Origin: a virus
DNA: 21,840 nucleotides
Virus record (IMG/VR): IMGVR_UViG_3300037840_000105
Location: 1-21,840 of that record
Strand: one strand, 5' to 3'
Shown here: in pieces, positions 2,623 through 21,345 of the stretch
How positions within the stretch are numbered: position 1 is the first letter of the stretch
Layout of the letters: each line of letters opens with the position of its first letter
Notes under the pieces: model-generated
Told to the model about the DNA's origin: nothing
The model's database searches: none
Seen by the model: only the letters and a program-made list of their open reading frames with translations
Position numbers and translations under genes: made by a program

Positions 2623-3687
2623 ATGCCCGACGTCACAGCTTTGTCTATGCCTGACGTGCAGCCCAAGACCGGGCCTGCGCTTTCGGCCACCTCTGACATG
2701 CCGGAAATCAAGGCCGCGCCGCCTGCCCTTTCGGAACAAGCCATCCCTGCGAAAGTCGAAAAGCCTGCCGCCGAGACTAAGCCCGCCAAGGTTGAAGCCA
2801 AGACCGACGGCGAAATCACGGAGACGGGTGCCGAAAAGCCCGGAACGACTGAAGAAACCGAAGGCGAAGACGGCAAGGGCGTTGATACCACCCCGCCCTG
2901 GATGAAAGCCAAGATCAGCAAGGCCAACACCAAGGCCAGGCTTGCCGAAGCTGCCGCCGAGATTGCCACCAAACGCGCCGACGCGCTCACCGCCAATCTG
3001 ACCAAGGCGCTGGAGGGTATTGAATCCCTCACCAAAGCCCAGGCCGCTACTCTGGACAAAGAGGCCGACAAGCAGGACCCGCGACCCGCCCGCGATACCT
3101 ACGACGATCCCACCAAATACGAGAGCGATCTGGTCGATTGGGCCGACCGCCGCGCCAAATTGATTGCCAAGGCCGATTCCGAGAAAGCGGTTGCCGACGC
3201 TCTGGCCAAGGAGAAGACCGACGCCGCTGCGGTCAAAGCCAAGGAAGAGAACGACAAGACCCTGGCCGAATTTGCCGAGCGCAAGGCCAAGTTCATCGAG
3301 GATCATCCCGATTACGAGGATCTGGTCGAGAACGCCGATCCCGACAAAGAACTGCAAATCTCCATCCCGATGGCCAATGCCATCCTCAACGATGAGGACG
3401 GCCCCGCCATTGCCTATTACCTCGGCCAGAACCCGGACGAGGCCAGCCGTATTTCCAAATTGCCCGGGGTTCGGGCGATAGCCGAGTTGGGCCGCATCGC
3501 TGCGCGCCTCAATGCCAAGCCTGCCCCTGCAACCAAGCCAGCCCCCATCAAGGTCCTGAAGACGGGCTCGGAGACTGCAACCCGTAAAACCGCCGCCGAG
3601 GAATCGATGGAGGAATACGGGGCTCGCCGTCAACGAGAACTCGCCAACGCCAGACGGACTCAAATGGGGCTGGCCCCACTCAACTGA
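2623..3687 (+). CDS. Capsid scaffolding protein (P22 gp8-like by position)
   Basis: Scaffolding proteins guide coat assembly and leave the procapsid before or during DNA packaging. This 354-residue protein lies between portal and coat and has the expected character. It has a low-complexity acidic/Ala/Pro N-terminus (1-90) and a PPWMKAKI entry motif (91-98). Long charged helices follow (about 99-225), then IAYYLGQNPDEASRI (263-277), which I recognise from scaffolds of other podoviruses. The basic tail RRQRELANARR (335-345) fits the coat-binding helix-turn-helix end of P22 scaffold. GGAG at 2612-2615 sits 7 bases before the ATG. I see no protease motif. The role rests on position plus composition, so it is firm as a scaffold but not as a strict gp8 homologue. 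Confidence 0.75.
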   Translation: MPDVTALSMPDVQPKTGPALSATSDMPEIKAAPPALSEQAIPAKVEKPAAETKPAKVEAKTDGEITETGAEKPGTTEETEGEDGKGVDTTPPWMKAKISKANTKARLAEAAAEIATKRADALTANLTKALEGIESLTKAQAATLDKEADKQDPRPARDTYDDPTKYESDLVDWADRRAKLIAKADSEKAVADALAKEKTDAAAVKAKEENDKTLAEFAERKAKFIEDHPDYEDLVENADPDKELQISIPMANAILNDEDGPAIAYYLGQNPDEASRISKLPGVRAIAELGRIAARLNAKPAPATKPAPIKVLKTGSETATRKTAAEESMEEYGARRQRELANARRTQMGLAPLN

Positions 3688-7604: not shown

Positions 7605-8180
7605 ATGAGCGAAAATAACGACATCAAAGAACTTCTCCTCGGCTGCGGCAATTCCCGCGAGAAAAAGCTATTTGCCCCGGAAAATAACCGGGACTGGCAC
7701 AATCTCACCACCCTGGACTGGAGCCCGGATTGTAAGCCGGATGTGGTGCATGATTTAACCGTGCTGCCCTATCCGTTTGCCGATAACGAATTCGACGAAT
7801 GTCACCTCTACGAGTGCTTGGAGCATACTGGCCAACAGGGCAATTGGCGGTTTTTCTTCGACCAGTTCAGCGAGTTGTGGCGAATCACCAAGCCGGGCGG
7901 GATGCTGTTTGGGACCTGTCCGCTGCCAAATTCGCCCTGGGCGTGGGCCGATCCTTCGCATACACGCGTCATCGCCCTGGAGAGCTTTATCTTCCTGCGC
8001 CAGCAGGCCTATGAGCAGCATGTCGGCAAAACCGCCATGACCGACTTCCGCCACTATTATAAGGCGGATTGGGAGTTGGTGTTCGAACACAAGGACGTCG
8101 CTACCCAGATGTTCGCGCTCAAGGCGATCAAGCCGGCTGGGGCCGCGCCGGAAATTACCGCTGCCGAGGCGGCGCAATGA
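7605..8180 (+). CDS. SAM-dependent methyltransferase-like protein
   Basis: This is a 191-residue class I (Rossmann) methyltransferase-like protein. Motif I is LLLGCGNSREKK (10-21), a variant of the usual GxGxG. An acidic end of strand 2 follows at D38 in TTLDWSP. Then comes DVVHDLTVLPYPF (46-58), DEFDECHLYECLEH-type motif IV (61-74) and LWRITKPGGMLFG (91-103). This is the pattern of Methyltransf_11-like enzymes often linked to sugar or polysaccharide biosynthesis. The acceptor cannot be read from sequence. GAGG (7596-7599) lies 5 bases before ATG. Its last 4 bases overlap the glycosyltransferase start (ATGA), so the two are translationally coupled and probably act on the same product. Confidence 0.75.
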   Translation: MSENNDIKELLLGCGNSREKKLFAPENNRDWHNLTTLDWSPDCKPDVVHDLTVLPYPFADNEFDECHLYECLEHTGQQGNWRFFFDQFSELWRITKPGGMLFGTCPLPNSPWAWADPSHTRVIALESFIFLRQQAYEQHVGKTAMTDFRHYYKADWELVFEHKDVATQMFALKAIKPAGAAPEITAAEAAQ

Positions 8181-8917
8181 GCGATCTGCCCACAACAGAC
8201 AAGTGTGTCGTGTTTGCCACGCCATGTTACGACCATCGGGTTTGCTACGAGTTCTACAAATCTGGGCTCGAAACCGAATGGGCGCTGAACGCGCGCGGGA
8301 TTGCGCGGGGTTATATCGGACGCGGCGGCGATCAGTTCATTGCCAAGGTGCGCAACAAGATCGTCAGCGAGTTTCTGACCAATTATCCGATGGCCACCGA
8401 CCTGTTCTTTCTGGACGATGATATCGGCTGGCCGGCGCTCAAGGTGGTGGAATTCTTGGACCGGCCAGAGGATATCGTGGCCGGGATTTATCCCAAGAAG
8501 CAGGAAGACCGCGATTTCCCGGTGGAGCTTGAGGCTGATGCCACCACGGGGTCATTGGTCGAGCGCGATGGTCTGGTCAAGGCCCGCGCCGTGCCCACCG
8601 GCTTCATGCGGATCAAGCGTCATGTGCTGGAAAGCCTGGCCGAAAGAGCGGGCACCTTCCGCGAGCAGGATGCCAATGGTAGCTGGGGGACCTATTACGA
8701 GATCTTCCGCTGCGGGGTGGTGAACGGCGAATTCAACGGCGAGGATTACCTGTTTTGCCAGAACGCCCAGGCACTCGGCTTTGAAATCTGGGTCGATCCC
8801 AATATCGAATTTACCCACCGAGGGAATAAGCGTTGGAAGGACACTCTGGCGGTCCACTTGGACGTTTTCCGGGATAAGGCTATTCTCGCCGCGAACAAGC
8901 TAAAGGAACCGGCATGA
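8177..8917 (+). CDS. Glycosyltransferase-like protein (GT-A fold)
   Basis: This protein has 246 residues, starting at ATG 8177 inside the methyltransferase stop. The frame is open further upstream, but only this start gives the usual ATGA overlap. VVFATPCYD (11-19) is a nucleotide-sugar-binding first strand. FFLDDDIGW (77-85) gives an Asp-rich metal-binding motif (D80, D81, D82). GEDYLFCQNAQALGF (188-202) followed by VDPNIEFTHRG (206-216) matches the acidic catalytic helix and metal-binding His of GT2/Anp1-like enzymes. The phage family is common, but donor and acceptor are unknown. A virion protein or host surface glycan are both possible targets. It overlaps the next gene by 4 bases. Confidence 0.7.
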   Translation: MSDLPTTDKCVVFATPCYDHRVCYEFYKSGLETEWALNARGIARGYIGRGGDQFIAKVRNKIVSEFLTNYPMATDLFFLDDDIGWPALKVVEFLDRPEDIVAGIYPKKQEDRDFPVELEADATTGSLVERDGLVKARAVPTGFMRIKRHVLESLAERAGTFREQDANGSWGTYYEIFRCGVVNGEFNGEDYLFCQNAQALGFEIWVDPNIEFTHRGNKRWKDTLAVHLDVFRDKAILAANKLKEPA

Positions 8918-9870
8918 GCGCAGTCCTCGCCTACGAAGCCGTTGTGATGAAGCATCCCCATGCCCGCAAGGGCAAGGTCACCCAGATCAAGGGGGTGGAT
9001 GCCGTCAGCGGTCGGCCATTTACCGATTCCCAGGGTGAACCCGATGTCTTCCCTGATGTCACGGTCAAGGACCCCCATACCGAGGCCTATTACCGCGCCC
9101 GGGGTTATATCATTCCCGGCGAAGTTCCGCCGCCGCCCGCCGAATATGCCGAATACCCGGTGATGCTGGTTCATCCCGAGCATGTCGATGCCATCCCCGA
9201 TGATTGGCATATCGAAAAGGGCGACAATGGCGAGATCATCCGCCACAAGATCTTGGGCAAGCCGGAAGTCTTTCCGCCCCGGCAGGCCAATACCGAGGCC
9301 GAGGAAGAATCCCTGGGACAGAAAGGCTACAAGCGCGCCGGCCAGGATAACCCCGATGCCATCCGCAGCGCCCATGCCTCACCCTATGTCCCGGGCCGCA
9401 AGACCCAGGAATATCCCAAGATGGTCAATGGCGAGATCGAAGACCCCGAGGCCCCGAGCGGCGGCCCGATCCAGTATCCCAAATGGATTGGCGATAAGCT
9501 GGTCCACAGCCGGGCCGAGGAAGAGGCCCTGACCGGCAAGAAAGCCGATGTGGTTCTCGATGTCTGCATCATCTGCGACGAGATCATTCTGGAAGGCCAG
9601 CCAGCAGCTACCGGCAAGAATGGCATGTTCCATACCGCGCACCTCGCGGGCGGCCATGTTCCCACCGCAGTCCCTCCCGTTGCGGTGGAAGACAAGATCG
9701 AACTGCCCGACGCGGCAGACGTGGAGCTTGGCGAGGAAACGGAGATCGGACAAGACGCGCCGAAGAAGCGTATCCGCCGCACCAAGGCGCAGATCGAGGC
9801 CGATAATGCGGCGGCAGAACTGGCAAAGCGTGAAAAACCGGCAAAGGCGAAAGTCCCAGCCGGAGAGTAA
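8914..9870 (+). CDS. Phage protein with YPK modules, Cys/His cluster and basic C-terminus
   Basis: This 318-residue protein of unknown function overlaps the glycosyltransferase stop (ATGA). Related short segments recur: EYPVMLVHPEH (80-90) followed by EEESLGQKGYK (130-140), EYPKMVNGE (166-174), and QYPKWIGDKLVHSRAEEEAL (187-206). I know this YPK..EEEAL pattern from small proteins near phage tail and head genes, of unknown role. C218, C221, H240, H243 and H248 form a possible zinc-binding cluster. The C-terminus KKRIRRTKAQIEADNAAAELAKREK has the RRTKAQIEA motif seen at the ends of several phage proteins and may bind DNA or another virion protein. Position just before gp4 suggests a head-completion or minor virion role (inference). 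Confidence 0.6.
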   Translation: MSAVLAYEAVVMKHPHARKGKVTQIKGVDAVSGRPFTDSQGEPDVFPDVTVKDPHTEAYYRARGYIIPGEVPPPPAEYAEYPVMLVHPEHVDAIPDDWHIEKGDNGEIIRHKILGKPEVFPPRQANTEAEEESLGQKGYKRAGQDNPDAIRSAHASPYVPGRKTQEYPKMVNGEIEDPEAPSGGPIQYPKWIGDKLVHSRAEEEALTGKKADVVLDVCIICDEIILEGQPAATGKNGMFHTAHLAGGHVPTAVPPVAVEDKIELPDAADVELGEETEIGQDAPKKRIRRTKAQIEADNAAAELAKREKPAKAKVPAGE

Positions 9871-9873
9871 GCC

Positions 9874-10623
9874 ATGGCCGACCCGACCGCGATGGTGATC
9901 GTGCAAGATTGCTTAGAGCTCTTGCAGGTTTACGCCCCCGGCGAAACTATCTCGGACGCCGACGCCCAGAGGACCTTATCCGTCCTCAACGATATGTTGG
10001 ATGTCTGGTCCAACCTGACGCTGTCCTGTTTCACCATCCTCGAACAGTCGTTTCCGCTGGTCGCCGGCCAGCAGCAATACACCGTGGGGCCGGGCGGCCA
10101 GATCAATGGCCAGAGGCCGCTCAAGGTTCTCGATGGTCCCGGCACCGCCTATGTCCAGGACTTCAACGGGAATAACTACGGCGTCAGCGTCGTTGCCCGC
10201 GACCAGTGGAATTTGTACGGCAATCGCTCCGAGCTGATTACCTCGGACTTCCCCGATACGCTGTTTTACGATCCGCAGTATCCGCTCGGCATCATCAACG
10301 TTATGCCGGTGCCGACCATAAATTACACGATGTTCTTTGATTCGTATTCGCAGCTCGGGGATTTGTCATCGCTCACCGCCATCCTCTCCCTCCCCCCCGG
10401 CTATAAGCGGGCGATCACGACCAATCTCGCGGTCAGTGTGAAGCCCTATTTCAAGACCGGACAGCTCGATCCGCTCATCATTGCCGAAGCGATGAAAACC
10501 CACGGCGACATCAAACGCACCAATATGCGTCCGAATGTGGCGGTGATGGAGCCGGAATTAGTGAGCAGAGCCCAGATATCATATAATCCGTACACGGACC
10601 GCCAAGGGAGCAGTTCTTCTTAG
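9874..10623 (+). CDS. Portal-to-tail adaptor / head-completion protein, P22 gp4-like
   Basis: P22 gp4 binds the portal ring from outside, is the first tail factor after packaging, and helps retain the DNA. This protein has 249 residues, against 166 in P22, so it has a longer C-terminus. The N-terminal helices (DCLELLQVYAPGETISDADA, then RTLSVLNDMLDVW) and the strand SFPLVAGQQQYTVGPGG (about 59-75) are the pattern I associate with the gp4 family. DTLFYDPQYPLG and LPPGYKRAITTNLAV follow, also typical. The Ser-rich end GSSSS is likely flexible. GGAGAG (9862-9867) is its ribosome binding site. The gp10-like gene follows directly, as in P22. Confidence 0.7.
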   Translation: MADPTAMVIVQDCLELLQVYAPGETISDADAQRTLSVLNDMLDVWSNLTLSCFTILEQSFPLVAGQQQYTVGPGGQINGQRPLKVLDGPGTAYVQDFNGNNYGVSVVARDQWNLYGNRSELITSDFPDTLFYDPQYPLGIINVMPVPTINYTMFFDSYSQLGDLSSLTAILSLPPGYKRAITTNLAVSVKPYFKTGQLDPLIIAEAMKTHGDIKRTNMRPNVAVMEPELVSRAQISYNPYTDRQGSSSS

Positions 10624-10652
10624 TTATCAAGCACTTATATAGGGCTACAGCC

Positions 10653-12320
10653 GTGGTTTCAACCCCGATTTTTGGCGGTTTTTATAAAGCGTGGTCCTTT
10701 AATCAGGCCTACCAACTTTGCACGAATTTGTACCCCAGCGTTGTGGATACGCACACCGGCAAAGAAGTCGGCGCGCTGTATTCGACCCCCGGCCTTGATC
10801 TGCTCGCCAATGTCGGGGTCGGTGCCGCGCGTGGCTTCAAGGTCTTTCAAGGTCTGCTCTATGTCGTCAGCGGCAACAGCGTTTATTCGGTCAATCTCCA
10901 GTTTGCGGTGACCCTGGTGGGCACCATTGGGACCGCACACGGCCCGGTTAGCATGGTTTCCAATGGCAAGCAGATGCTCATCATCGACGGCACCAATGCC
11001 TATCTGGTGCCGGGCGGCCAGCCGCTGACGGGGGGTACGATCAGTGACGGCGGGGCGGATTACACGGTGGGGGATTCGATCAATCTGACCGCCAATGACG
11101 GTCAGCAGAATGCCACAGCGCAGATCCTTGTCTCAAGCGTCAGTGGCGGGGCGGTGACCGGCTTTAGCGTGACATTCACCGGGGCCTTTGGCCCCCTCCC
11201 CACTACCTTCTCGCAAGCCTCGACCACGGGTTCAGGCACCGGCTTTTCGCTCAATCTGCCGACATTTGGCACTTTCGCCCCGATTTACACCGTACCCCTT
11301 CCCTTCACTGGCCCGGCCTATGGCTCCTATCAGGACGGTTTGGGCCTGATCGCCCAGGGCCAGTCGCAGATCATGTGGCAGACCAATCTATTCGACTTCT
11401 CAATCATTGATCCGCTGGCCTTCGACAGCGCCGACGCCGAGCCCGATAACATCCAGGCCTTGGCGCAGCTACACGAAGAACAATTCGTCTTCAAATCGAC
11501 TAATACCGAGGTCTGGATCAACGCGGGCATTTCCGGGTTTGCGTTCCAGAGACTGGCCGGCGTTCATATCGAGTTGGGTTGCGCCGCACCCTTCTCCGTG
11601 GCGCTATGCGGCGAATCGCTGATTTGGCTGGCGATGAACGAGCAGGGCGAAGGCACGGTGCACCAGATCACCGGCTATGAGCCCAAGAAAATCTCGACCA
11701 AGGCCATTGATAGCCAGATCCAGAGCTATGCGATTATTTCCGATGCGGTGGCCTACAGTTATCAGCAGTCCGGGCGTCTGTTCTATGTCCTGCGCTTTCC
11801 GACCGGCAACGCCACTTGGGTCTATGACCTGACCACGGGCTTGTGGCACCAGCGAGCCGCCTTTGCCAATGGGGCCTTCTCCCAACACTGGTCCAACTGC
11901 TATGCCTCGTTCAGCGGCAAGAATGTTGTGGGCGATTACCGCAATGGCAATATCTATGCGATCGATCAGAACGCCTTGACCGACAACGGCACCCCCAAGA
12001 AATGGGTCCGCACCTGGCGGGCGTTGAAAGAGCCGGTTTATGTGCCGATGACATTCGCGGCATTGGAGATCGACTTGCAGACGGGGATCAATATTCCGGC
12101 TGGTACAGCCCCGCTGGCGGTGCTGCGCTGGTCCGACGATGGATGCCATACGTGGTCGGATGAACGCTTCCAGGCGGTTGGTCCGGTTGGGGCGACGGCG
12201 CAGCGGGTGATCTTCCGCCGCTTGGGCAGCACGCGCTTCAATTCCGGGCTGGACCGGGTGTTTGAGTTGTCCGGCACCGATCAGTACCCGGTGGCCATTA
12301 TCAACGCAGATTTGACCTGA
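10653..12320 (+). CDS. Tail hub / packaged-DNA stabilisation protein, P22 gp10-like, with inserted domain
   Basis: P22 gp10 forms the hexameric tail hub that follows gp4 and carries tailspikes and needle. This protein has 555 residues, against 472 in P22. The N-terminus resembles gp10 in TNLYPSVVDT (24-33) and STPGLDLLANVG (44-55). Later come QIMWQTNLFDFSIIDPLAFDSADAEPD (239-265), the EVWINAG strand and GEGTVHQITGY, which is the beta-propeller-like gp10 pattern. Residues about 126-205 (bases 11028-11267) hold an extra Gly/Ser/Thr-rich stretch absent from P22 gp10. It starts GGTISDGGADYTVGD and resembles small beta-domains scattered through phage tail fibres. The start is GTG 10653 with AGGG (10641-10644) upstream; I see no better in-frame start. 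The stop overlaps the next start by one base. Confidence 0.7.
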   Translation: MVSTPIFGGFYKAWSFNQAYQLCTNLYPSVVDTHTGKEVGALYSTPGLDLLANVGVGAARGFKVFQGLLYVVSGNSVYSVNLQFAVTLVGTIGTAHGPVSMVSNGKQMLIIDGTNAYLVPGGQPLTGGTISDGGADYTVGDSINLTANDGQQNATAQILVSSVSGGAVTGFSVTFTGAFGPLPTTFSQASTTGSGTGFSLNLPTFGTFAPIYTVPLPFTGPAYGSYQDGLGLIAQGQSQIMWQTNLFDFSIIDPLAFDSADAEPDNIQALAQLHEEQFVFKSTNTEVWINAGISGFAFQRLAGVHIELGCAAPFSVALCGESLIWLAMNEQGEGTVHQITGYEPKKISTKAIDSQIQSYAIISDAVAYSYQQSGRLFYVLRFPTGNATWVYDLTTGLWHQRAAFANGAFSQHWSNCYASFSGKNVVGDYRNGNIYAIDQNALTDNGTPKKWVRTWRALKEPVYVPMTFAALEIDLQTGINIPAGTAPLAVLRWSDDGCHTWSDERFQAVGPVGATAQRVIFRRLGSTRFNSGLDRVFELSGTDQYPVAIINADLT

Positions 12321-12976
12321 TGTCATCAACTGGCTCGCCCCAAGGCTTCCCCAATATCAATCAGCCGATAGCCGCCCCCAATGGCTTTATCACCCGGCCA
12401 TGGCTGCAATTGATGGTGGCCTTTTGGAACCGGACGGGTGCGGCCACAGGCGGCTCTATTGTGCCGACCGGGACGGTGGTCCACTTTGCTGGACCCGCCG
12501 CCAACATTCCGGGTGGATGGATCGCCTGCGGTCAGACAGTCTCCAAGACCACCTTCCCCAACCTGTTTGCCGCCATTCTTTATACTTGGGGCGGGAGCGG
12601 CGATAATTTTGCCTTGCCGCCGCAGGATGGTTTCATCAAAGGCGTCGGCTCCGATCATGTAGGGTCTACGGGCGGCGCGGCGACGGTTGCCGTTGCCGTG
12701 GCCAATCTGCCCGCCCATAACCATCCGGTAGTCGATCCAGGCCACACCCATGTCATCACCGATCCCGGCCATGTCCATGCCTCGCTGGTGGCCGATTCCA
12801 TCAACACCACAGGAACGGCGACAGGGGCGACACAGGCGGGAAACACCGCGATTGCCATGACCGGGATCACCAACAATCCGGCAACCACCGGGATCACCAC
12901 CGGCAACACCGGGGGGGCAACCCCCATTTCGACCATGCCGCCATACGCGGTTCTGCTCAAGATTATAAAAACGTGA
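12320..12976 (+). CDS. Tail-collar domain protein, in the P22 tail-needle slot
   Basis: This is a 218-residue protein. The N-terminal part (PNINQPIAAPNGFITRPWLQ, then AFWNRTGAATGG) is typical of short phage tail fibres. Residues 49-110 form a phage tail collar domain: PTGTVVHFAGP, IPGGWIACGQ, FPNLFAAILYTWGG, FALPPQDG. A His-rich stretch follows, with HNH (133-135), HTH (142-144) and HVH (151-153) spaced exactly nine residues apart within VxDPGHxH units. In T4 gp37-type fibres such HxH motifs bind iron along a trimer axis. The end TMPPYAVLLKIIKT closes the fold in the usual way. Lying right after gp10, it occupies the position of the P22 gp26 needle and may plug or tip the tail (inference). 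It overlaps both neighbours (TGATG before, GTGA after). Confidence 0.75.
   Translation: MSSTGSPQGFPNINQPIAAPNGFITRPWLQLMVAFWNRTGAATGGSIVPTGTVVHFAGPAANIPGGWIACGQTVSKTTFPNLFAAILYTWGGSGDNFALPPQDGFIKGVGSDHVGSTGGAATVAVAVANLPAHNHPVVDPGHTHVITDPGHVHASLVADSINTTGTATGATQAGNTAIAMTGITNNPATTGITTGNTGGATPISTMPPYAVLLKIIKT
12716..12778 (+). repeat. His-rich 9-residue coding repeat (HxH-VxDPG)
   Basis: Three units (HNHPVVDPG, HTHVITDPG, HVHASLVAD) are encoded in tandem at nine-residue spacing inside the collar gene. The arrangement fits a line of metal-binding His rings in a trimeric fibre. Confidence 0.75.
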
Positions 12977-13548
12977 CCAACAAATTCCTCATCGCTGGGA
13001 TGCCTCGGTGCCGAACCGCATGGTTCAGCGTTGTCATGTCCACGGCAAATTCGTTATGCTGGCATGAGCCTACGGCGCACATCCAAAGCTATGATGCGCT
13101 GGTCGAGTTCTGGAAACCCAAGTTTGGCGAAATCGTCGGCATTTCGGATTCCGCCCTGACCCTGCAATTGGACCGCATACTGTCGGAAATCAGACCGCGA
13201 ACCCTGTTGATAGAGCGCCCGATCCCCCAGGTCATGGCCTCGATGCGCAAATACTTCAAGGGCGCGGAATTGATGCTCGACTATGACGAGGGCCGGCGCT
13301 ATCTTGGTCGGCTGGCTGAGAAGATAGACCAATTCCGCACCTGCGATCTGGTCCGCACCGTGGCCTTCGAGGCCCTAAAGGACTATGACACGGTGCTGGA
13401 TCTGATAACTTGGCTGGCCCCCGGAATCGACCTCCTGGACTTGCGCACGCTGATGCACTTCAACATCCAAGCCGACCGGGACCATGTGATCGACCTCATT
13501 AAACGACCTCATACCCATTGGTATCGAGAGCCCTGTGAAGCACTTTAA
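12973..13548 (+). CDS. Sulfotransferase-like protein
   Basis: This is a 191-residue protein. FLIAGMPRCRTAWFSVVM (5-22) resembles the 5'-phosphosulfate-binding loop of PAPS-dependent sulfotransferases (GxPRSxTTW in classical forms). LLIERPIPQVMASMRKYF (78-95) matches the 3'-phosphate-binding strand and helix with its Arg and Ser. Phage versions of this short family are common and none that I know of has a firmly established acceptor. PAPS binding is inferred from motifs only. A general P-loop kinase is an alternative. The start is GTG 12973, overlapping the collar stop by 4 bases, with no clear ribosome binding site, so it is probably translated by coupling. It overlaps the hydroxylase-like gene by 14 bases. 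Confidence 0.6.
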   Translation: MTNKFLIAGMPRCRTAWFSVVMSTANSLCWHEPTAHIQSYDALVEFWKPKFGEIVGISDSALTLQLDRILSEIRPRTLLIERPIPQVMASMRKYFKGAELMLDYDEGRRYLGRLAEKIDQFRTCDLVRTVAFEALKDYDTVLDLITWLAPGIDLLDLRTLMHFNIQADRDHVIDLIKRPHTHWYREPCEAL

Positions 13549-14092
13549 GCACATCGCATCGGGGATCGAGGTCGCGCCGCTGTTGGCCCAGATCGAGGCC
13601 CATCCCGAGATTTGGAACGTCCATCGCAACCGCACCGGGTTTGAGGGCTCGCCATTCGCCGGAAGTTCGGATGCATGGCTTCGGTATCGTGACCCCGCCG
13701 AGCTGACCGAGACCAAGAATTACAAAGAGCCACATTTTGCCGTTAACTACCCGGCCTGGGACCTCCTGCCGGCGGCGCAAGAGATCGTTTTTGACCTGAT
13801 GCGGCTGGTGCGGGGGGTGCATCTGGGCGGCGTTCTGCTCACCAAGATTCCGGCCAAATGGACGATATTACCCCATGATGACCGGGGCTCCTGGCACGCC
13901 GAAACCCATAACTGCAAAATCTATGTCCCGGTCCAGGCCAACGATCAGTGTGTGAATTATTGCGGGGATGAAAGCCTGGTCATCAATGTCGGCGAGGCCG
14001 TCAGTTTCGACAATCTGGTGACTCATAGCGTCGAAAATCGCGGGGACACCGACAGGATCACCTTGATCTGCTGTTTTCGTGTAGACCCATAG
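13535..14092 (+). CDS. Aspartyl/asparaginyl beta-hydroxylase-like dioxygenase
   Basis: This is a 185-residue member of the PF05118-type 2-oxoglutarate/Fe(II) oxygenases by motif. The iron ligands fit H114 and D116 (LPHDDRG) and H164 (FDNLVTHSVEN), and R174 (RGDTDRITL) fits the 2-oxoglutarate salt bridge. HAETHNCKIYVPV (121-133) and GEAVSFDN (153-160) are family landmarks. Known members hydroxylate Asp/Asn in protein domains. The same superfamily includes LpxO, which hydroxylates lipid A acyl chains, so the target could be protein or lipid. The start is GTG 13535, nested in the end of the sulfotransferase-like gene, suggesting coordinated expression. All catalytic residues look intact. The substrate cannot be read from the sequence. 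Confidence 0.75.
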   Translation: MKHFKHIASGIEVAPLLAQIEAHPEIWNVHRNRTGFEGSPFAGSSDAWLRYRDPAELTETKNYKEPHFAVNYPAWDLLPAAQEIVFDLMRLVRGVHLGGVLLTKIPAKWTILPHDDRGSWHAETHNCKIYVPVQANDQCVNYCGDESLVINVGEAVSFDNLVTHSVENRGDTDRITLICCFRVDP

Positions 14093-14182
14093 CCCGATTG
14101 CGGTTTTGGCCGTCACAGGGTAGTTTCATGCGTCAACGCATCCGGCAAGAGCGGCTGACTTCTCGCTAGAGGGGTATGTGCA

Positions 14183-14953
14183 TTGCCGTTCGCTTGGGCC
14201 GCCGGAGCCGCCGCAGTCGGCAGTATCGCCAGTTCGGTCATCGGGTCTAACGCTGCGACCAGCGCGGCAGGCACCGAAGCTAATGCCGCGAACAATGCGA
14301 CCGCGACACAGCTTCAGATGTTCAACCAGACCCAGGCCAATGAGGCCCCGTATCTGGCGGCCGGCGGCAATGCGCTGGCGGCGTTGCAGCAGGGGATTGG
14401 TATCGGCCCCGGCACCAACAACAGCGGCGTCGGATCGCTCAATGCACCATTCACCACGGCGCAGTTTCACAACTCCCCCGGCTATCAATTCCAGCTCCAA
14501 CAGGGCGAAAATGCCGTCCTGAGCAATGCGGCGGCCACGGGCGGGGTCAATTCCGGCAATACGCTTAAGGCGTTGACTCAGTTTGGCCAGGGCACCGCCA
14601 ATCAGGACTATTGGAACGCCTATAACGCCTATGTGAACCAGCAAAACCAGCGCTTCGGCCAATTGCAGACCGTAGCCGGATCGGGCCAGAACGCCGCTGG
14701 AAATCTCGGGGCGCTGGGAACCCAAGTTGGCTCCAGCGTGGGGAATAATATCGTCGGTGCGGGTAATGCGGCGGCGGCCGGGCAGGTTGGCAGCGCCAAT
14801 GCCATCGCGGGCGGGATCAACAACGCGACCAGCGGGCTATCGCAGAATTATCTGCTCTATAGCCTGATGAATGGCGGCCTGCCGGGCGGGACGGGCGGCG
14901 GCGGTGGCGGTGGCAGTCCCGGCGCCTATGATGCTTCGATGAATTGGTCCTAG
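14183..14953 (+). CDS. DNA ejection / injection protein, P22 gp7-like slot
   Basis: This 256-residue protein is rich in Ala, Asn, Gln and Gly. Residues 1-22 form an Ala/Gly-rich hydrophobic helix. Then come a low-charge coiled region with QLQMFNQTQANEAPYLAAGGNALAAL (43-68) and the landmark SPGYQFQLQQGENAVLSNAAA (98-118). SGNTLKALTQFGQGTA (124-139) and LQTVAGSGQNAAGNLGALG follow. I recognise this series from podovirus DNA-transfer proteins. A Gly-rich linker (232-248) closes it. It is expected inside the virion and delivered with the DNA. The start is TTG 14183, with GAGGGG (14169-14174) 8 bases upstream; no in-frame ATG or GTG is better placed. It leads a three-gene ejection block. Confidence 0.7.
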   Translation: MPFAWAAGAAAVGSIASSVIGSNAATSAAGTEANAANNATATQLQMFNQTQANEAPYLAAGGNALAALQQGIGIGPGTNNSGVGSLNAPFTTAQFHNSPGYQFQLQQGENAVLSNAAATGGVNSGNTLKALTQFGQGTANQDYWNAYNAYVNQQNQRFGQLQTVAGSGQNAAGNLGALGTQVGSSVGNNIVGAGNAAAAGQVGSANAIAGGINNATSGLSQNYLLYSLMNGGLPGGTGGGGGGGSPGAYDASMNWS

Positions 14954-14954
14954 G

Positions 14955-16514
14955 ATGGCCACCGATCCGAACATAATTTTGGACGCCGGCAATATCCAAG
15001 GCCCGAGCCCGCAGCAGCAGGAACAGGGCCTTGTGTCCATGTTCTCGCTGGCGCAGGGGATCAAGCAGGCGAAATTGCAAGACCAGCGCACCAATGCCTT
15101 GCGCGATGCTTTTACCAATCCCGACAGTGTGGATTCCACGACCGGACTACCGACCACCAATGCGCTGCGCAAGGTGATGGCGGTTGATCCCGAACTTGGC
15201 GTCAAGTTGCAGGAAGACACCCTGGATGCCCAGGTCAAGCGCGCCCAAGCCCAGCATTACAAGACCGAAGCCGTAAAGAGCAATTTTGACTTTGCCAGCA
15301 GCGCGGCGGGGATCGGCTACAATGCCTATGATGCGGCCAAGAAAGCCGGAAAGCCGGAAACTGACGCCATCGCGGCGGGCCAGGCAGCGCGTAACGAAGC
15401 AGCGAAAAACAACGGCGGCGTCATCAGCGATGATCTGGAAGATCAGATTGTCGGTTCGCCCTTCGATCCCGCCAAGGCATTAGCCCTTGCCAGTTCGAAT
15501 TCGGAGTTTGCGAAGTCCCGCAGCGAAGCCGCGGCCACCGAACGCGCGGACAAAAACATCGACCTCGGCAACCGGCGTCTGGATTACCAGGAAAAGCACG
15601 GCGATGAGGTCTTGGCTGCCGCTCTCAATCGTGGGGAGCAGGGAAAGTGGCAAGTCCTGACAGACCCGACCCAGAAGGACGCTAAAGGCAATCCAATCCA
15701 ATATCGCTATAATCCTGAGACTGGACAATCAACCACCCTGGATGCTTCCCAGCCCTTTAAACCGGGTGGCGCGGCCAAGATGGGCGGTGGCGGACAAGGC
15801 GGCGAATTCACCCCCAAAATGGGCGCGCTGATGGCTGCAACGGCAGAGCAAGGCGTTTCCCTGCCGACGGGGTTTCGCTCCAAGGCCCAGCAGATCGAGC
15901 TTTATCAGGGACTTCTCGATAGAAATCCCGATAAATCCCCAGATGAAATCGCCAAGATGCTCAAGACCGGGCAGATCGAGTTTGGGGCGCAGAAGAAGGA
16001 AACCCAGACGGCGGCGAATATCGCCGGCAAAGTTCAAGTATTTGCGAATGAACTTGACAAGAACCTACCCCTTCTCCGTAGCGCGGCTAAAGATGTCCCG
16101 CGTGGAAACTGGGTGGACCTAACCAATCTTTTGCAGACCGCCGATACACACATATCAGACCCGAAACTGAAAACTCTGAAGGGGTACATCAACTCAACAA
16201 TGCAGGCTTACGACGGGCTGGGCTCTCGCGGCGGCATGGATAAGGATAAGCGCGAGGCGAACAGGAAGTTATTGCTCTCCGCAGATGGCCCCGAGGCATT
16301 TGAAGCGCAACTCAAGGTGTTTGAGAAAGAAGCACAAATAGCGAAGGATTCGGCTTATGAGGCGACAAAATCTCCCGAACTAGACGCGCCGCCTAGTAAT
16401 GCCGGCCATGGAATTGCCGCACCTTCATCCAAGGCGGATTACGATGCGCTGCCGTCCGGCGCGCATTATTCCAAGCCCGGTGATGCGCCGGGCACGTACC
16501 GGGTGAAACCCTGA
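14955..16514 (+). CDS. Second ejection-type virion protein (gp20-like slot)
   Basis: This 519-residue protein starts two bases after the previous stop. The N-terminus (QGPSPQQQEQGLVSMFSLAQGIKQAKLQDQ) is the helical opening common in podovirus internal virion proteins. Most of the first 240 residues are predicted helical and charged. A Gly-rich linker near 277 leads to a second helical domain (about 290-470; PDEIAKMLKTGQ, then GLGSRGGMDKDKREANRKLL). The C-terminus ADYDALPSGAHYSKPGDAPGTYRVKP is a short beta-rich tail found in many phage internal proteins. Codon use becomes clearly more A/T-ending between about 15640 and 16400 than before it, which suggests a recombination junction. Assignment to the ejectosome is by position and style; no catalytic motif is seen. 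Confidence 0.6.
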   Translation: MATDPNIILDAGNIQGPSPQQQEQGLVSMFSLAQGIKQAKLQDQRTNALRDAFTNPDSVDSTTGLPTTNALRKVMAVDPELGVKLQEDTLDAQVKRAQAQHYKTEAVKSNFDFASSAAGIGYNAYDAAKKAGKPETDAIAAGQAARNEAAKNNGGVISDDLEDQIVGSPFDPAKALALASSNSEFAKSRSEAAATERADKNIDLGNRRLDYQEKHGDEVLAAALNRGEQGKWQVLTDPTQKDAKGNPIQYRYNPETGQSTTLDASQPFKPGGAAKMGGGGQGGEFTPKMGALMAATAEQGVSLPTGFRSKAQQIELYQGLLDRNPDKSPDEIAKMLKTGQIEFGAQKKETQTAANIAGKVQVFANELDKNLPLLRSAAKDVPRGNWVDLTNLLQTADTHISDPKLKTLKGYINSTMQAYDGLGSRGGMDKDKREANRKLLLSADGPEAFEAQLKVFEKEAQIAKDSAYEATKSPELDAPPSNAGHGIAAPSSKADYDALPSGAHYSKPGDAPGTYRVKP

Positions 16515-19500
16515 TGGCTGATGATTGGGGAAATGATCCGATCCAGAAGGTTGCCACTCCCGCCGCTGGCGGAGATTGGGGTAATGATTCTGTGGTGGGG
16601 ACTAAGGGGTTCAAGTTCTCGGATGACGCTATCAACGGGGCCATCAAGAATTCGTCCAAAGTGGTCTGGATGCACCCGGACCAGTATTTGGCGATGACCC
16701 CGGACCTCGAAAGCAATCCCCGCACCGACAAAAAGGGCGCCTCGCTGCAAAAGTCTCTCGCCAAGGGCGATGAGGTGGACGCGGTGCCCAGCCTGGATGT
16801 GAGCGTGGGCAAGGACGGCACCGCCAAGGTGGTGGATCAGGATGGCCGCCACCGGGCACAGTTCGCCAAGGATGCTGGGGTGGATCTGATTCCTGTGGCG
16901 GTGAAGCGTTCCGGCGAAAAGGGGTTGATTACCCATCTGGAAAGCATGAAACCGGAGCCATCTCAAGAGCAGATTTTTGACCGCAATAAGGCTTATGCCA
17001 AGCCTGAAAAAAGCTATTTGACGACGCTACCTGCGTCGGACGAGGCCAAGTTCCAGCAATGGGTGAAAGCCAATAAGGTCCCGTTTGATCCATCCCCGGC
17101 CGCTGACTATGACATGCGCGGATACTGGAAGGCGCTGGAATCTGGCGACACGGAACACACTGGGACTGGTGTCAACAAGAACGACGGACAGTTGCATTTT
17201 AGCGACTATTTCAAGACCCCCTATCACAAGAGCTTTTCAGCCGAAAGCCAGTGGGCCACCAAAGATGCTCCGAAATGGAACGATAAAGACCAGTTGATTG
17301 CTCCAGATGGCAAGGTCGTATTTGATGAGCGTACCAAGCCCGGAGTTGTCCCGTTCGATTTCAAGCCGGTCCTGCCGCCCCAGAAGGCCCAGCCGAAGCC
17401 CGCCGCCGCCACACAGGCCCCCGCTGGCGCACCCCGCTGGGATGTGCTGGGCGATATAGGACGGTCTGCGGAAGGGGCCGTGGACGCCGCTGGTGCCGAT
17501 CTGAAGGCAGCGTTCCCCGGTGCCAAAGCTGTTGGGGAAAATACCGGCCCGCTTGCCACTCTAGGCCGCATGGGAAGCGCCCTCAAGCTTCCGGCGGATG
17601 TGGCTGGACTGGCACTATCCCCCCTGACCGGCACTGCCCATGCCCTGGCCGGGAGCGCTCTGTCATACATCGAACGGTCTCAACAGCCCTCCATCGAAGT
17701 GAACGGGATTAAGGGCGCAAACCCTTTGTCTGCGGAAAACCGGAAAATGGTCCCGGTAGACCCCAAGGCCCAGGCAGATGCTGATATTGACCAACTGATG
17801 ATGCTCGCGGCCCCAGAAAAGGGTGGTTCATTCACGAAAGCGCCACCCGTAAATGCCCTGAAGGCCCAAATGTCTGAGGCTGCGCTGAAGAACCGCGCCG
17901 TCGAAAAGATCAATGCCAAGATGGCGGCGGATGGCTTAACAGCGCAGCAAGTGTTGGATGCGCAGAAAAGTGCCAATGCCGCTGGCGACAAACTTACCCT
18001 GATGGACATCGGCAAAAAGAACCTGAAAGGGCTGGCAGGTTCGGTCTATCGCGCGCCAGGAGAAGCAGGGACGAAGATCGATGAGTTTCTGGATACCAGA
18101 GACAAAGCGGTATCGGATGCCCTCACCGCCGACATCCATGGCGGTATCGCCAAGGGTTCGACCTTCGATGCGATGAAGAACCTTTTCACCGCCCGCACCA
18201 TGGCGTCCAAGCCGGCGTTCGATGCTGCATTTGATGCGAGCAGTTTGGCTCCGTTTGAAAGCCAGTTCCGCACTGAACTCACAGCGGCGACTGGCACGAA
18301 GGGCCAAATTGCCAAGCAAATCTCGGACATCGAAAAGAACAATCCTGGCGCGCTGGCGGCTCGCGGCGCAGCTGGGGCGGATGTACGCGCAAAATACATG
18401 GATCTGCGCCAAAAGCTCGATCAGGCGGAAACCGACCGCCAGTCAGCGCTCAAGGTCTTTCAGAAGGCTAAGGCAGATGGGACGGCCAATGCGCCCGGTG
18501 CCGTGTGGAGCCCGCGACTTCAGGAATTCATGGACAACCCGGAAATTCAATCTGGTCTCCGGGCTGCGCTCAAGCTGGAAAAGCAGGATTCGGTCTCCGA
18601 GCGCAGACCGTTCAAGGACAGCGACTTCGGTATTGTCGGCACCGACGATAAGGGCGACCCAATCATTGGCACGGTTCCGACCATGAAATCTCTTGCCGTG
18701 GCAAAAGAGGGGCTTGATGCGCGCATTGCCGACCTGAAAGACCCGACTACGGGCCGTCCTACCAAGTCTGGTCTGTCTCTGAAGAAGTTCAGGGACGAGT
18801 TCGTAAAAGAGCTTTACCGCCTCAATCCTCGCTACAAGACGGCTGTGGATGCTTGGTCGGGACCGTCGCAATCGGTGGACGCGATCAAGGAAGGTAAGAC
18901 CCATTTCAGCCGCCCGGAAAGCAACGAAGAGGTCAAGGCGGACTTTGACGCGCTCACAAGCAGCGATAAGGAATTCTATCGTCTTGGGGCGGCTGAGGCC
19001 AAGATTGACGCCGTTGAACGCTCTGCCGATGCCAGCGACAAGACCAAGAAAGTCATCAACAACGAGCGCGACCGCAAGCGGTTTCGAATGCTATTTAATT
19101 CTGACGCCGAGGCGCAGAAGTTCATTGATTCTGTCGAGCGCAAGCGGACGATGTTCGACACCAGAACCGACATCAAGGGCAATTCCAAGACGGCCCAGCG
19201 GCAGGCAGAAGACGACTCCGAGATGCTGGAAAAGGGCCTCAATGTCGTGCATGCGGGGGCAAATGCCCTGTCTGGAAATTGGCTCGGTGCGCTCGCGCGG
19301 GCCGCAAGGGCCAAGAAGGATTTGGGGATGATTAATGACCCGGCGTTCAATTCCGAGCTGGCCAGTATCCTGACCAATCCGAACCTAAATATTGCGCCGT
19401 CCGGTGGTCTTGCCCTTCTCCACAACACGCCACTCCCAGGGGTGCAGAACCAGCTCGCGCAGGGGATCTACCGGGCCGCCCATGTCGCCGGGGTCAATTC

Positions 19501-19564
19501 CGTCAAGGCCAACGCCTTGCGCGCGATGCTTGCGGGCCAAACGCCACCCCAGCAGGGCCAGTAG
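16514..19564 (+). CDS. Large ejection-type virion protein with ParB-like N-terminal region
   Basis: This 1016-residue protein is the largest in the window and the third in the ejection block; P22 gp16 (609 residues) holds the same slot. DWGND occurs twice (4-8, 21-25). Residues about 49-133 end in DQDGRHRAQFAKDAGVDLIP (108-127), a ParB/sulfiredoxin-like motif. Residues about 168-267 hold a domain I know from other podovirus internal proteins: YDMRGYWKAL (199-208), HFSDYFKTPYHKSFS (228-242), QLIAPDGKVVF. A Pro/Ala linker (about 283-310) leads to a long helical region up to about 960, then SGGLALLHNTPLPGVQNQL near the C-terminus. There is no lysozyme or transglycosylase motif that I can confirm. 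The start ATG 16514 overlaps the previous stop by one base. Confidence 0.65.
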   Translation: MADDWGNDPIQKVATPAAGGDWGNDSVVGTKGFKFSDDAINGAIKNSSKVVWMHPDQYLAMTPDLESNPRTDKKGASLQKSLAKGDEVDAVPSLDVSVGKDGTAKVVDQDGRHRAQFAKDAGVDLIPVAVKRSGEKGLITHLESMKPEPSQEQIFDRNKAYAKPEKSYLTTLPASDEAKFQQWVKANKVPFDPSPAADYDMRGYWKALESGDTEHTGTGVNKNDGQLHFSDYFKTPYHKSFSAESQWATKDAPKWNDKDQLIAPDGKVVFDERTKPGVVPFDFKPVLPPQKAQPKPAAATQAPAGAPRWDVLGDIGRSAEGAVDAAGADLKAAFPGAKAVGENTGPLATLGRMGSALKLPADVAGLALSPLTGTAHALAGSALSYIERSQQPSIEVNGIKGANPLSAENRKMVPVDPKAQADADIDQLMMLAAPEKGGSFTKAPPVNALKAQMSEAALKNRAVEKINAKMAADGLTAQQVLDAQKSANAAGDKLTLMDIGKKNLKGLAGSVYRAPGEAGTKIDEFLDTRDKAVSDALTADIHGGIAKGSTFDAMKNLFTARTMASKPAFDAAFDASSLAPFESQFRTELTAATGTKGQIAKQISDIEKNNPGALAARGAAGADVRAKYMDLRQKLDQAETDRQSALKVFQKAKADGTANAPGAVWSPRLQEFMDNPEIQSGLRAALKLEKQDSVSERRPFKDSDFGIVGTDDKGDPIIGTVPTMKSLAVAKEGLDARIADLKDPTTGRPTKSGLSLKKFRDEFVKELYRLNPRYKTAVDAWSGPSQSVDAIKEGKTHFSRPESNEEVKADFDALTSSDKEFYRLGAAEAKIDAVERSADASDKTKKVINNERDRKRFRMLFNSDAEAQKFIDSVERKRTMFDTRTDIKGNSKTAQRQAEDDSEMLEKGLNVVHAGANALSGNWLGALARAARAKKDLGMINDPAFNSELASILTNPNLNIAPSGGLALLHNTPLPGVQNQLAQGIYRAAHVAGVNSVKANALRAMLAGQTPPQQGQ

Positions 19565-19609
19565 AATGGCCCCGTCTGCCAATACAATTAGCAATCCGTG
19601 GGCTTGGTG

Positions 19610-20023
19610 ATGATCGAGCGAGATCAAGCGGGGCCGCGTGTGTTCATCGTGGCACAGACTATACCACACGCCGCGCAAAATTATCCAACTGTCGGGGATT
19701 ACAAGACCGACGAAAACGGCTGTCTAACCGTCAAAGTCTCAGACATGGGAAACCGGGATTACGAGTTCCTGGTCGCCATTCACGAACTGGTCGAAGCCTA
19801 TTTGTGCCAGAAGCGCGGGATTACCGACGAGGAGATCACGGCGTTCGACATCGAATTCGAGGCCAAGCGCCGCCCGGGCGATTTGAGCGAACCAGGCGAT
19901 GATCGCGAGGCCCCTTATGGCAATGAGCATAACACGGCTACTGCCGTTGAGCGTCTGATGTGCGCGGCGCTGGGCGTCTCATGGCAGGATTACGAGCGCG
20001 CTGTGCAGAGGCTTTCGCCATGA
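19610..20023 (+). CDS. Conserved phage protein with HELVEA motif
   Basis: This protein has 137 residues from ATG 19610. In-frame GTG 19598, TTG 19604 and GTG 19607 are alternatives, and none of them has a clear ribosome binding site. FLVAIHELVEAYLCQKRGI carries H-E-L-V-E-A at 58-63. It is followed by EEITAFDIEFE and, near the end, PYGNEHNTATAVERL with another Glu-His pair. The His/Glu spacing looks like a metal site of zincin type but lacks the full HExxH, so peptidase activity is doubtful. I recognise the overall pattern from phage genomes, where it is usually left as hypothetical. It overlaps the ATP-grasp gene by 4 bases (ATGA). Confidence 0.65.
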   Translation: MIERDQAGPRVFIVAQTIPHAAQNYPTVGDYKTDENGCLTVKVSDMGNRDYEFLVAIHELVEAYLCQKRGITDEEITAFDIEFEAKRRPGDLSEPGDDREAPYGNEHNTATAVERLMCAALGVSWQDYERAVQRLSP

Positions 20024-21345
20024 GCCTCAATGTCCTTATTGTGGATGCGGAAGGTCTGGGGCTTGATTTTGCCCTTCGCTGTGTAGAATCTGGACATTCT
20101 GTAAAGTGGTTTAAGCCGTCCAAAAAGCCAAGCAAAGTTGGCCAAGGCTTTCGCATCGACATGGTGGATGATTTCCGCCCCCATATGTCTTGGGCGAAGA
20201 ATGGCCTGGTGATTACCACCGGCAATGCCAAGTATATCACCGAACTTGACCGATTTCGTGATTTGGGCTGGAAAATCTTCGCCCCCACCGCCCGCAGCGC
20301 CAAGCTGGAAATTGACCGCGCGTTCGGCATGGAGGAGATGCAGAAGGTTGGGATCAAAGTCCCGCCTTATGAGCAGTTTAAAAGCCTGAAAGACGCCGAG
20401 AACTTCGCCCGCAAGTCGGACAAGGCATGGTGCTTCAAGACACTGGGCAGCGAGGAAGACAAGGCGCTGTCCTATGTCGCGTCTGACCCCGCCGATATGG
20501 TGGGATGGATCCAGCGCCAGCAAAAGCTCGGCATGACCCTCAAAGGCCCCTGCATGTTGCAGGAGAAGATCGACATGCTGGCCGAGGTCGGTGTGTCGGG
20601 GTGGTTTGGGCCGGAAGGCTTTCTGCCTGAGAAATGGAGCGTCTGCTTCGAACACAAAAAATTGATGAACGATGAAAAGGGCCCCAACACGGGAGAGCAA
20701 GGTTCGGTTCTCCAGTATGTCGAAACCGACAAGATGGCCGAGGAAATGCTCAAACCGATGGAGAACTATCTCCTCAAGGCTGGGCACCGTGGGGATTTTG
20801 CTATCGGCTGCGGCATCGACAAATCCGGCAAGGCGTGGCCGTTCGAGTTTACCGCCAGGCTGGGCTGGCCGGCATTCTATATCCAGATCGCCTCCCACAA
20901 GGGCGACCCGGCCCAATGGATGCGCGATCTCCTGGATGGCAAGGACACGCTCAGGGTCTCCCGGGATGCAGCCATCGGCGTGGTCATGGCCCAGCCGCGC
21001 TACCCCTACAACGACAGCGATCCCAAGATGGTCGAGGGCGTGCCGATTTCCGGCTGCGACGAAGTCTGGGCCGATCTCCACCCCGCCGAAATGATGATGG
21101 GCCGTGGCCCCAAAATGGATGGGGATAAGGTGGTGGAAGGCCCCATTTTCCAGACCGCTGGTGAGTATGTCGCCATCATGACAGCGCTGGGGGATACTGT
21201 TGAAAAGGCGAAAAAGCGTGTATATCGAAGCATCCGGCAAGTTTCGTTCCCCAATGCCATGTACCGCACAGACATTGGGAAAAAGGTGATTGAATGCCTG
21301 CCGGAACTCAAAAAGTTTGGCTATGCCATGGATCTAGAGCCGTGA
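20020..21345 (+). CDS. PurD-like ATP-grasp ligase (phosphoribosylamine-glycine ligase family)
   Basis: The protein has 441 residues, close to bacterial PurD (about 430). The start is ATG 20020 in the usual ATGA overlap, although the frame is open upstream. Landmarks are a PurD-like N-terminal strand and helix (LIVDAEGLGLDFALRC, 6-21) and VPPYEQFKSLKDAENFA (114-130). The ATP-grasp core follows: GPCMLQEKI (176-184), SVCFEHKKLM (207-216), GPNTGEQGSV (221-230) and EFTARLGWP (276-284, the metal-binding strand). The end MYRTDIGKKV (414-423) fits the PurD C-domain. PurD joins glycine to phosphoribosylamine in purine synthesis. The GPNTG and EFxxR sites are kept, but the ATP-binding lysine region (KAWCFKTLGSEEDKAL) departs from the PurD consensus. 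The substrate may therefore differ. It may serve as a metabolic gene or a modification ligase. Confidence 0.75.
   Translation: MSLNVLIVDAEGLGLDFALRCVESGHSVKWFKPSKKPSKVGQGFRIDMVDDFRPHMSWAKNGLVITTGNAKYITELDRFRDLGWKIFAPTARSAKLEIDRAFGMEEMQKVGIKVPPYEQFKSLKDAENFARKSDKAWCFKTLGSEEDKALSYVASDPADMVGWIQRQQKLGMTLKGPCMLQEKIDMLAEVGVSGWFGPEGFLPEKWSVCFEHKKLMNDEKGPNTGEQGSVLQYVETDKMAEEMLKPMENYLLKAGHRGDFAIGCGIDKSGKAWPFEFTARLGWPAFYIQIASHKGDPAQWMRDLLDGKDTLRVSRDAAIGVVMAQPRYPYNDSDPKMVEGVPISGCDEVWADLHPAEMMMGRGPKMDGDKVVEGPIFQTAGEYVAIMTALGDTVEKAKKRVYRSIRQVSFPNAMYRTDIGKKVIECLPELKKFGYAMDLEP

Follow-up and report, generated by a model that had tools for sequence, protein, structure and literature searches.

Carboxylate-amine ligases are generally known from several systems that modify peptides and proteins. 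RimK-type and other ATP-grasp peptide ligases belong here, and in pupylation (Pup-PafA/Dop) a ligase of this kind is dedicated to a GG-[Q/E]-like tag at a C-terminus, PafA being a glutamine-synthetase-type enzyme and not an ATP-grasp one. In phages, the amidoligases, ATP-grasp enzymes and glutamine amidotransferases of LUZ24/phiEco32-type clusters are amide-forming, and they are said to have been proposed by Iyer and colleagues to modify peptides or the cell wall. These clusters (Iyer et al., 2009) comprise families other than the one considered here, and in UFV-P2 the amidoligase/ATP-grasp cluster genes lie in the early, replication-side region (PMC3890496).

The locus described here likewise encodes a putative amide-forming phage enzyme, but its PurD-type ligase lies in the virion block. 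It may be likened to RimK-type enzymes as a candidate carboxylate-amine ligase proposed to act on a protein C-terminus, although it comes from another ATP-grasp branch. It would also resemble pupylation in matching a GG-[Q/E]-like C-terminal tag with a dedicated ligase, whereas the phage tag sits on a large structural protein and is linked to the ligase by co-occurrence.

The window is a stretch of 21,840 nucleotides (positions 1 to 21,840 of IMG/VR virus record IMGVR_UViG_3300037840_000105). An earlier note on this DNA had placed five modifying-enzyme genes among virion genes on one strand, and our analysis confirms this: the methyltransferase (MTase), glycosyltransferase-like (GT), sulfotransferase-like (ST), hydroxylase (OH) and ATP-grasp ligase (ATPg) ORFs all lie on the + strand inside one contiguous P22-like late block, with the following features.

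196..2511, + strand: portal protein, P22-like (phrog_156, 1.7e-125)
2623..3687, + strand: head scaffolding protein (phrog_8865, 7.1e-27)
3723..4907, + strand: major head (coat) protein (phrog_283, 1.2e-78)
7605..8180, + strand: class I methyltransferase, coat-to-gp4 slot (Methyltransf_11, 2.7e-5)
8177..8917, + strand: GT-A-like glycosyltransferase of the phrog_1574 family, coat-to-gp4 slot (phrog_1574, 2.1e-25)
9874..10623, + strand: gp4-position head-tail protein (gene order; phrog_12985, 3.4e-36, no function annotated)
10653..12320, + strand: gp10-like DNA stabilisation/head closure protein (phrog_578, 1e-89)
12320..12976, + strand: tail collar domain protein (Pfam Collar, 5.2e-8)
12973..13548, + strand: PAPS-sulfotransferase-fold protein (ST), slot directly 5' of the ejection genes (motifs and AF2 fold)
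13535..14092, + strand: 2OG/Fe(II) hydroxylase of the Asp_Arg_Hydrox family (OH), ST slot (Asp_Arg_Hydrox, 1.4e-9)
14183..14953, + strand: gp7-like ejection protein (phrog_598 DNA ejection, 2e-37)
14955..16514, + strand: gp20-position ejection protein (by order only, between the gp7-like and gp16-position genes; no family match)
16514..19564, + strand: gp16-position ejection protein, C-terminus ...GQTPPQQGQ (gene order; phrog_5880, 7e-33, no function annotated)
19541..19561, + strand: Gln tail TPPQQGQ at the C-terminus of the gp16-position protein, proposed ligase substrate (terminal Gln enriched beside the ligase)
19598..20023, + strand: orf141, small HELxE protein, often immediately 5' of the ligase
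20020..21345, + strand: PurD-like ATP-grasp ligase, ATPg (GARS_C, 5.6e-12)

Overlaps with a neighbour do measure 4 to 14 bases (MTase/GT, GT/orf318, collar/ST and orf141/ATPg, 4 b each; ST/OH, 14 b), but they involve all five enzyme genes and not four of the five.

Our preferred reading, held with moderate confidence, is that these genes include a virion-assembly-linked module that we infer to be expressed late and that would modify the phage's own ejection (internal virion) proteins, with the ligase predicted to act at the gp16 C-terminus. This explanation draws on the observed gene order and slots, conserved catalytic features, a bias in the tails of the last ejection protein, and the co-occurrence of tail and ligase.

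Across IMG/VR contigs, the gene order and the slots of the enzymes recur more than expected by chance, and the enzyme genes are not random morons. In related contigs their occurrence was neither independent nor random, so that the suggested link to structural genes stands; relatives carry ST, OH, GT and ligase repeatedly at these positions, and the MTase–GT pair was found once more. ST, OH or GNAT is present in 77/96 dereplicated ligase-bearing contigs, and 95/96 of the ST/OH/GNAT genes share one position, the slot immediately 5' of the ejection-protein genes, 2.3–7.5 kb upstream of the ligase. The three are interchangeable occupants of this single slot. GNAT is missing from the window and present in the slot of other contigs. 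What stays constant is the ATP-grasp ligase, linked to the last ejection protein, a constancy to be read with the contigs having been gathered largely through the ligase itself. It lies 3' of the gp16-position gene, either directly or after orf141, also where none of the ejection genes has a match in the P22 set. No Pfam enzyme was found among ten scanned slot ORFs of ligase-less phages, and single-protein IMG/VR scans with ST and with OH gave no matches. The OH alignment contains no block of sufficient conservation for a scan.

The GT occupies the coat-to-gp4 slot in 9 of the 18 ligase-bearing contigs in which the coat-to-gp4 region is complete, and the MTase–GT order recurs only in contig L161. 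GT and MTase, whose slot is a different and less conserved one, probably form a modification unit of their own. The idea of one kit of five enzymes therefore survives in its recurrent link to structural genes, but not as a unit, since the slots are separate and MTase and GT stand apart from ST, OH and ligase. The methyltransferase scores above the Methyltransf_11 gathering cut-off (25.2 bits against 21.2), as its L161 relative also matches (27.3 bits). The GT-like protein is 36% identical to a gene of MW202691 labelled 'polysaccharide biosynthesis', and its tentative assignment to GT-A draws on phrog_1574 (no function annotated), a DxD-type motif that is invariant in the family alignment and a weak similarity to viral A197 in a profile search (2c0n, E 0.03); it matched no curated family.

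ST is claimed by fold and motif and not as a Pfam member, because no curated family scored above cut-off: the window protein had no Pfam match, and 3/13 relatives weakly matched Sulfotransfer_3 (best 0.02). Its PAPS motifs are conserved (5'-PSB PR in 68/68 and T15 in 66/68; 3'-PB R82 in 67/68 and S90 in 63/68, spacing 8), H31 is invariant and E32 nearly so. For the AF2 (AlphaFold) model (84.4), nearly all best PDB fold matches are sulfotransferases (TMq 0.5–0.6, E 2.5e-4 to about 1e-2), headed by tyrosylprotein sulfotransferases (2.5e-4). ST thus shares the fold and the 5'-PSB and 3'-PB motifs of tyrosylprotein and other PAPS sulfotransferases, but differs from solved members in being only ~190 aa long and lacking detectable sequence similarity to them. 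OH matches the family of Asp/Asn beta-hydroxylases and proline-4-hydroxylases (Asp_Arg_Hydrox, PF05118; 38.4 bits, gathering cut-off 22.6), with the HxD...H triad (H114, D116, H164) kept in 29/29 sequences and R174 in 25/29; its nearest solved relative is L-proline cis-4-hydroxylase (1.2e-10). It is set apart by being phage-encoded and often coupled to ST. Sulfation or hydroxylation signatures (Tyr, acidic Tyr, Pro and Asn/Asp content) in gp4, gp7, gp10, gp20 and gp16 gave no consistent signal over many tests.

In an alternative reading, the targets would belong to the host, being either its proteins or its surface molecules (lipid A, polysaccharide); their modification late in infection would serve takeover or superinfection exclusion, and the site by the ejection genes would be a tolerated insertion hotspot. 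This suits the Asp_Arg_Hydrox, GNAT, sulfotransferase and GT families, whose substrates can be lipids, sugars or host proteins. We regard this alternative as rather improbable. The free exchange of ST, OH and GNAT within the slot fits it, and there is a precedent in Rac, a GNAT of phiKMV-like phages that targets the alpha subunit of host RNA polymerase (PMC7552054). A hotspot, however, does not explain why the ligase constantly follows the last ejection gene in phages of different types, nor why the product of this gene has Gln or YGG-x-Q tails. Of the targets named in the earlier note, virion proteins or host surface molecules, the pattern points to the former, specifically to ejection proteins as presumed substrates, and away from capsid, tail surface and host glycans.

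In 62/111 ligase-bearing phages, Gln is the final residue of the last ejection protein; for the other ORFs on the same contigs the share is 95/1477 (6.4%). In a comparison with ligase-less P22-like phages, terminal Gln was present in 37/63 ligase-bearing phages against 2/30 without the ligase. A prediction of terminal Gln, fixed in advance, was borne out in new loci (28/54). Terminal Gln is not obligatory, because ~44% of ligase-bearing phages lack it, Glu and Pro being the commonest alternatives. A start–stop overlap as the cause of the terminal Gln was rejected (ATGA-overlap control, 16%; gap-only, 21/42). One ligase clade has YGG-x-Q/E tails: of the 30 matches to YGG-type tails among 3,897 ORFs, 27 fall on the protein next to the ligase. 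YGG-tailed proteins mostly have no detectable C-terminal homology to one another, and for two queries no homologues were found in named phages. No comparable tag was found at the N- and C-termini of gp7-like and gp20-like proteins in GNAT-bearing contigs.

Tail type follows ligase phylogeny. Within P22-like phages, ligase presence amounts to nearly one clade, and independent-pair tests (ligase against ST/OH) had too few contrasts and were powerless. Shared ancestry is a partial confound of the tail–ligase co-occurrence, and linkage of neighbouring genes could keep both together. Tails and ligase might accordingly be a cassette inherited passively, the Gln or YGG-x-Q tail serving packaging or conduit function without being a ligase substrate. 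Ejection-protein C-termini do matter in themselves: infectivity of T7 depends on the five C-terminal residues of gp16 (PMC8954989). We nonetheless consider passive inheritance unlikely, since position -1 is kept while -2 to -20 are scrambled, an identical YGGPQQ end occurs on proteins with unrelated preceding sequence, and Gln is kept where the ligase is 1.4–6.8 kb away (L205, L206, L025). In the ligase-less L134, nested inside the ligase clade, the last ejection protein ends ...GSDH.

The ligase is virus-specific and scarcely occurs elsewhere, with at least 532 IMG/VR loci as opposed to 3 contigs from 84,980 prokaryote species genomes, and with no carrier among the cultivated phages of the collection searched. 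It belongs to the ATP-grasp superfamily with GARS_C; the GAR-synthetase fold (AF2 model 95.5; 2e-32, TM 0.76 (0.76/0.79)) and the ATP-grasp residues are conserved. Its Pfam matches are GARS_A and GARS_C, GARS_N being without a match. It looks active by its catalytic residues, with K140, K148, E211, K213, G225-E226 and E276-x-T-x-R280-x-G-x-P284 kept in 59/59 relatives. The exact chemistry is uncertain, because the metal-ligand Asn of the PurD ExN motif is Thr in all members; PurD GDPE is also changed, to G(W/Y)P, in 59/59. The ligase resembles PurD (TIGR00877) in full-length fold, ATP-grasp residues and C-terminal domain, and all 59 relatives match this family model (best only 3.3e-29), but it falls far below the equivalog cut-off (86.7 bits against 288, the match starting at model position 82), its N-terminal domain is unmatched, and it is virus-only and sits beside ejection genes. 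Orf141 has invariant residues in 21 relatives (H62 E63 L64 E66, D84, PG, PY, H111) and matched no Pfam or PDB family.

A role in purine metabolism is unlikely, and we give very little credence to an auxiliary metabolic gene boosting purine synthesis, which would account for the fold and C-terminal domains and recalls a purD, possibly of this family, that a snow-virus survey counts among the auxiliary genes of one complete viral genome (PMC11097641), given the sub-cut-off TIGR00877 score, the missing GARS_N match, the altered ExN and GDPE positions, the absence of PurM (PF00586) from 16 ligase-bearing records (controls, 14/14 matching) and the invariable siting by ejection genes.

Under the preferred reading, modification of the phage's own ejection proteins, a swappable enzyme (ST, 2OG hydroxylase, acetyltransferase or a pair) would be made upstream with or just before gp7, and the downstream ligase, descended from GAR synthetase (PurD) and specific to viruses, would act on the last ejection protein. 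The C-terminal carboxylate of this protein (usually that of a terminal Gln, in one clade that of a YGG-x-Q/E tail) would be activated by the ligase to an acyl phosphate and then joined to an amine, by chemistry as used by RimK and PurD. The phage may benefit through altered conduit assembly or through escape from exclusion systems; in P22, the mutations that allow escape from SieA fall within the C-terminal regions of gp16 and gp20 (PMC10883804). More tentatively, and with some doubt, we propose a tag-and-ligase system: the GAR-synthetase-derived ligase would recognise the terminal Gln (or YGG-x-Q/E) tag and conjugate it to an amine, possibly that of another protein, the swappable ST, OH or acetyltransferase would modify a neighbouring ejection protein, and together they would finish the DNA-injection conduit.

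Hardly anything is known of enzymes that modify phage ejection proteins post-translationally, and the literature we found does not describe such modification. The group concerned is large and consists of uncultured short-tailed phages in which modifying-enzyme genes flank three ejection-protein genes, which suggests that the phage would chemically finish its own injection machinery. A ligase almost restricted to viruses, with a C-terminal tag to match, would open the chemistry of the injection conduit to direct tests and would give phages a possible way round exclusion proteins that target ejection proteins. Moreover, some of the viral genes called as metabolic 'purD' may be protein ligases.

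The window, a viral record of 21,840 bases, carries a P22-like podovirus late block with genes for portal, scaffold, coat, HNH, gp10-like, collar and gp7-like proteins and for two other large proteins, assigned to the gp20 and gp16 ejection-protein positions by gene order only. The HNH endonuclease gene (4981-5766) lies directly 3' of the coat gene, as in relatives L123 and L006. Five enzyme genes are present where the earlier note had placed them:

7605-8180, methyltransferase
8177-8917, GT-A-like glycosyltransferase
12973-13548, protein of predicted PAPS-sulfotransferase fold (ST)
13535-14092, 2OG/Fe(II) hydroxylase (OH)
20020-21345, + strand, PurD-like ATP-grasp protein (the ligase)

The overlaps of 4-14 bases reported for four of these in fact extend to all five, each sharing 4 or 14 bases with a neighbouring gene.

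Genes mapped on ligase-bearing contigs follow a common plan, [ST and/or OH and/or an acetyltransferase, GNAT]-gp7-gp20-gp16-(orf141)-ligase, which is also kept where the ejection-position proteins carry a transglycosylase domain or match no PHROG ejection family. Across 96 dereplicated contigs, the upstream enzymes were GNAT (39; identity checked with Pfam on four members), ST (11), OH+ST (10), OH (10), GNAT+OH (5), GNAT+ST (2) or none (19), and 95/96 ST, OH or GNAT matches fall in the slot upstream of the ejection genes. Two contigs have ST between two different hydroxylases (L154:130-1941 and L157:2862-4421). Among P22-like phages, ST, OH or GNAT occur in 36/40 ligase-bearing vs 7/21 ligase-less contigs, a contrast confounded by ancestry because, in the gp10 tree, ligase-bearing phages essentially form a single deep clade and a small divergent one.

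The proposed co-occurrence of all five families holds in part: ST, OH and the ligase recur around the ejection genes, while the glycosyltransferase and methyltransferase occupy a separate slot between coat and gp4 and may form a second unit. This slot holds a glycosyltransferase in 9 of 18 ligase-bearing contigs, and the methyltransferase-glycosyltransferase order was found once outside the window (contig L161). In MW202691.1 (L006, 14953-16227), the glycosyltransferase continues into a fused C-terminal extension whose match to methyltransferases is weak, an arrangement resembling the window's separate pair.

The sulfotransferase fold of the 12973-13548 protein is supported by conserved PAPS-binding motifs and an AlphaFold model, although Pfam gave no such support for the window copy. 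The top PDB matches are tyrosylprotein sulfotransferases, at a modest TMq of about 0.6, so the claim covers the fold and not a tyrosine substrate. The protein matches phrog_10855, labelled "hydrolase", which is probably a sulfotransferase-fold family instead.

A ligase scan recovered 26 relatives and alignment scans hundreds, with only three contigs among 84,980 prokaryotic species genomes. Its AlphaFold model has a complete GAR-synthetase fold. Identity with PurD was rejected: the protein scores 86.7 bits against TIGR00877 (cut-off 288) and matches no GARS_N domain in Pfam. Among 59 diverse members, all keep the ATP-grasp residues and have Thr for the ExN Asn of PurD, and neither the Asp nor the Glu of GDPE is retained; PurM was absent from the 16 ligase-bearing records searched and found in 14/14 control genomes. 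The ligase is thus virus-specific and is probably active on a changed substrate. Directly 5' of it in many relatives, orf141 (19598-20023 in the window) represents a small family that has invariant HELxE, PG, PY and H motifs, lacks Pfam or PDB matches, and is possibly a metal-dependent partner enzyme. An opposite-strand HNH endonuclease gene separates the two in L029, L131, L203 and L209.

The last ejection protein beside the ligase tends to end in Gln: 37/63 ligase-bearing vs 2/30 ligase-less phages dereplicated at 60% identity, 28/49 vs 1/24 at 40% and 15/27 vs 0/15 at 30%, the ligase-less records being fragments, so that ligase absence may not hold for every member. Terminal Gln occurs in 6.4% of other ORFs on the same contigs and in 16% of control ORFs with an equal ATGA overlap, and tail entropy is 2.15 bits at position -1 vs 3.3-4.0 at -2 to -20. 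At least 35% terminal Gln was predicted in advance for new loci, and 28/54 had it. These loci also revealed a second tail, [Y/F]-x-G-x(1-3)-[Q/E/D] (e.g., YGGPQQ, YGGTQ); 27 of its 30 matches in 3,897 ORFs fall on the protein beside the ligase, without a P value because the pattern was defined post hoc. Homology reaches the C-termini in only 47/231 pairs of proteins so tailed, and tail types follow the ligase tree. In one phage inside the ligase clade, the third ejection protein ends ...GSDH and no ligase was found in its 54-kb record (the search detected 7/7 positive controls). The gp16-position proteins of ligase-less P22-like loci (e.g., L054, L064, L068, L105) often end in about NQNALA plus R, P or K, which suggests lineage-specific constraint on the C-terminal tails of ejection proteins. 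The window's gp20-position protein (14955-16514) ends ...YDALPSGAHYSKPGDAPGTYRVKP, an element recurring at that position in L019, L131, L140 and L212.

LUZ24-like phages have ATP-grasp/amidoligase clusters, which are early genes in UFV-P2 (PMC3890496), and sulfotransferases and 2OG oxygenases have been catalogued among phage auxiliary genes, their role being unclear (PMC10580990). No paper that we found describes a C-terminal Gln tag or links a PurD-type ligase to ejection proteins, though Iyer et al. 2009 may mention either.

In the simplest reading, the ligase would activate the last ejection protein at its C-terminal carboxylate, as PurD does glycine, and join this group to an amine. The modification would sit at a protein end important for delivery in P22 and T7: P22 mutations escaping SieA lie in the C-terminal regions of gp16 and gp20 (PMC10883804), and T7 gp16 requires its last five residues (PMC8954989). 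The upstream enzymes would sulfate, hydroxylate or acetylate gp7 or gp20; that they are interchangeable agrees better with an arms race or with host adaptation than with a single fixed chemistry.
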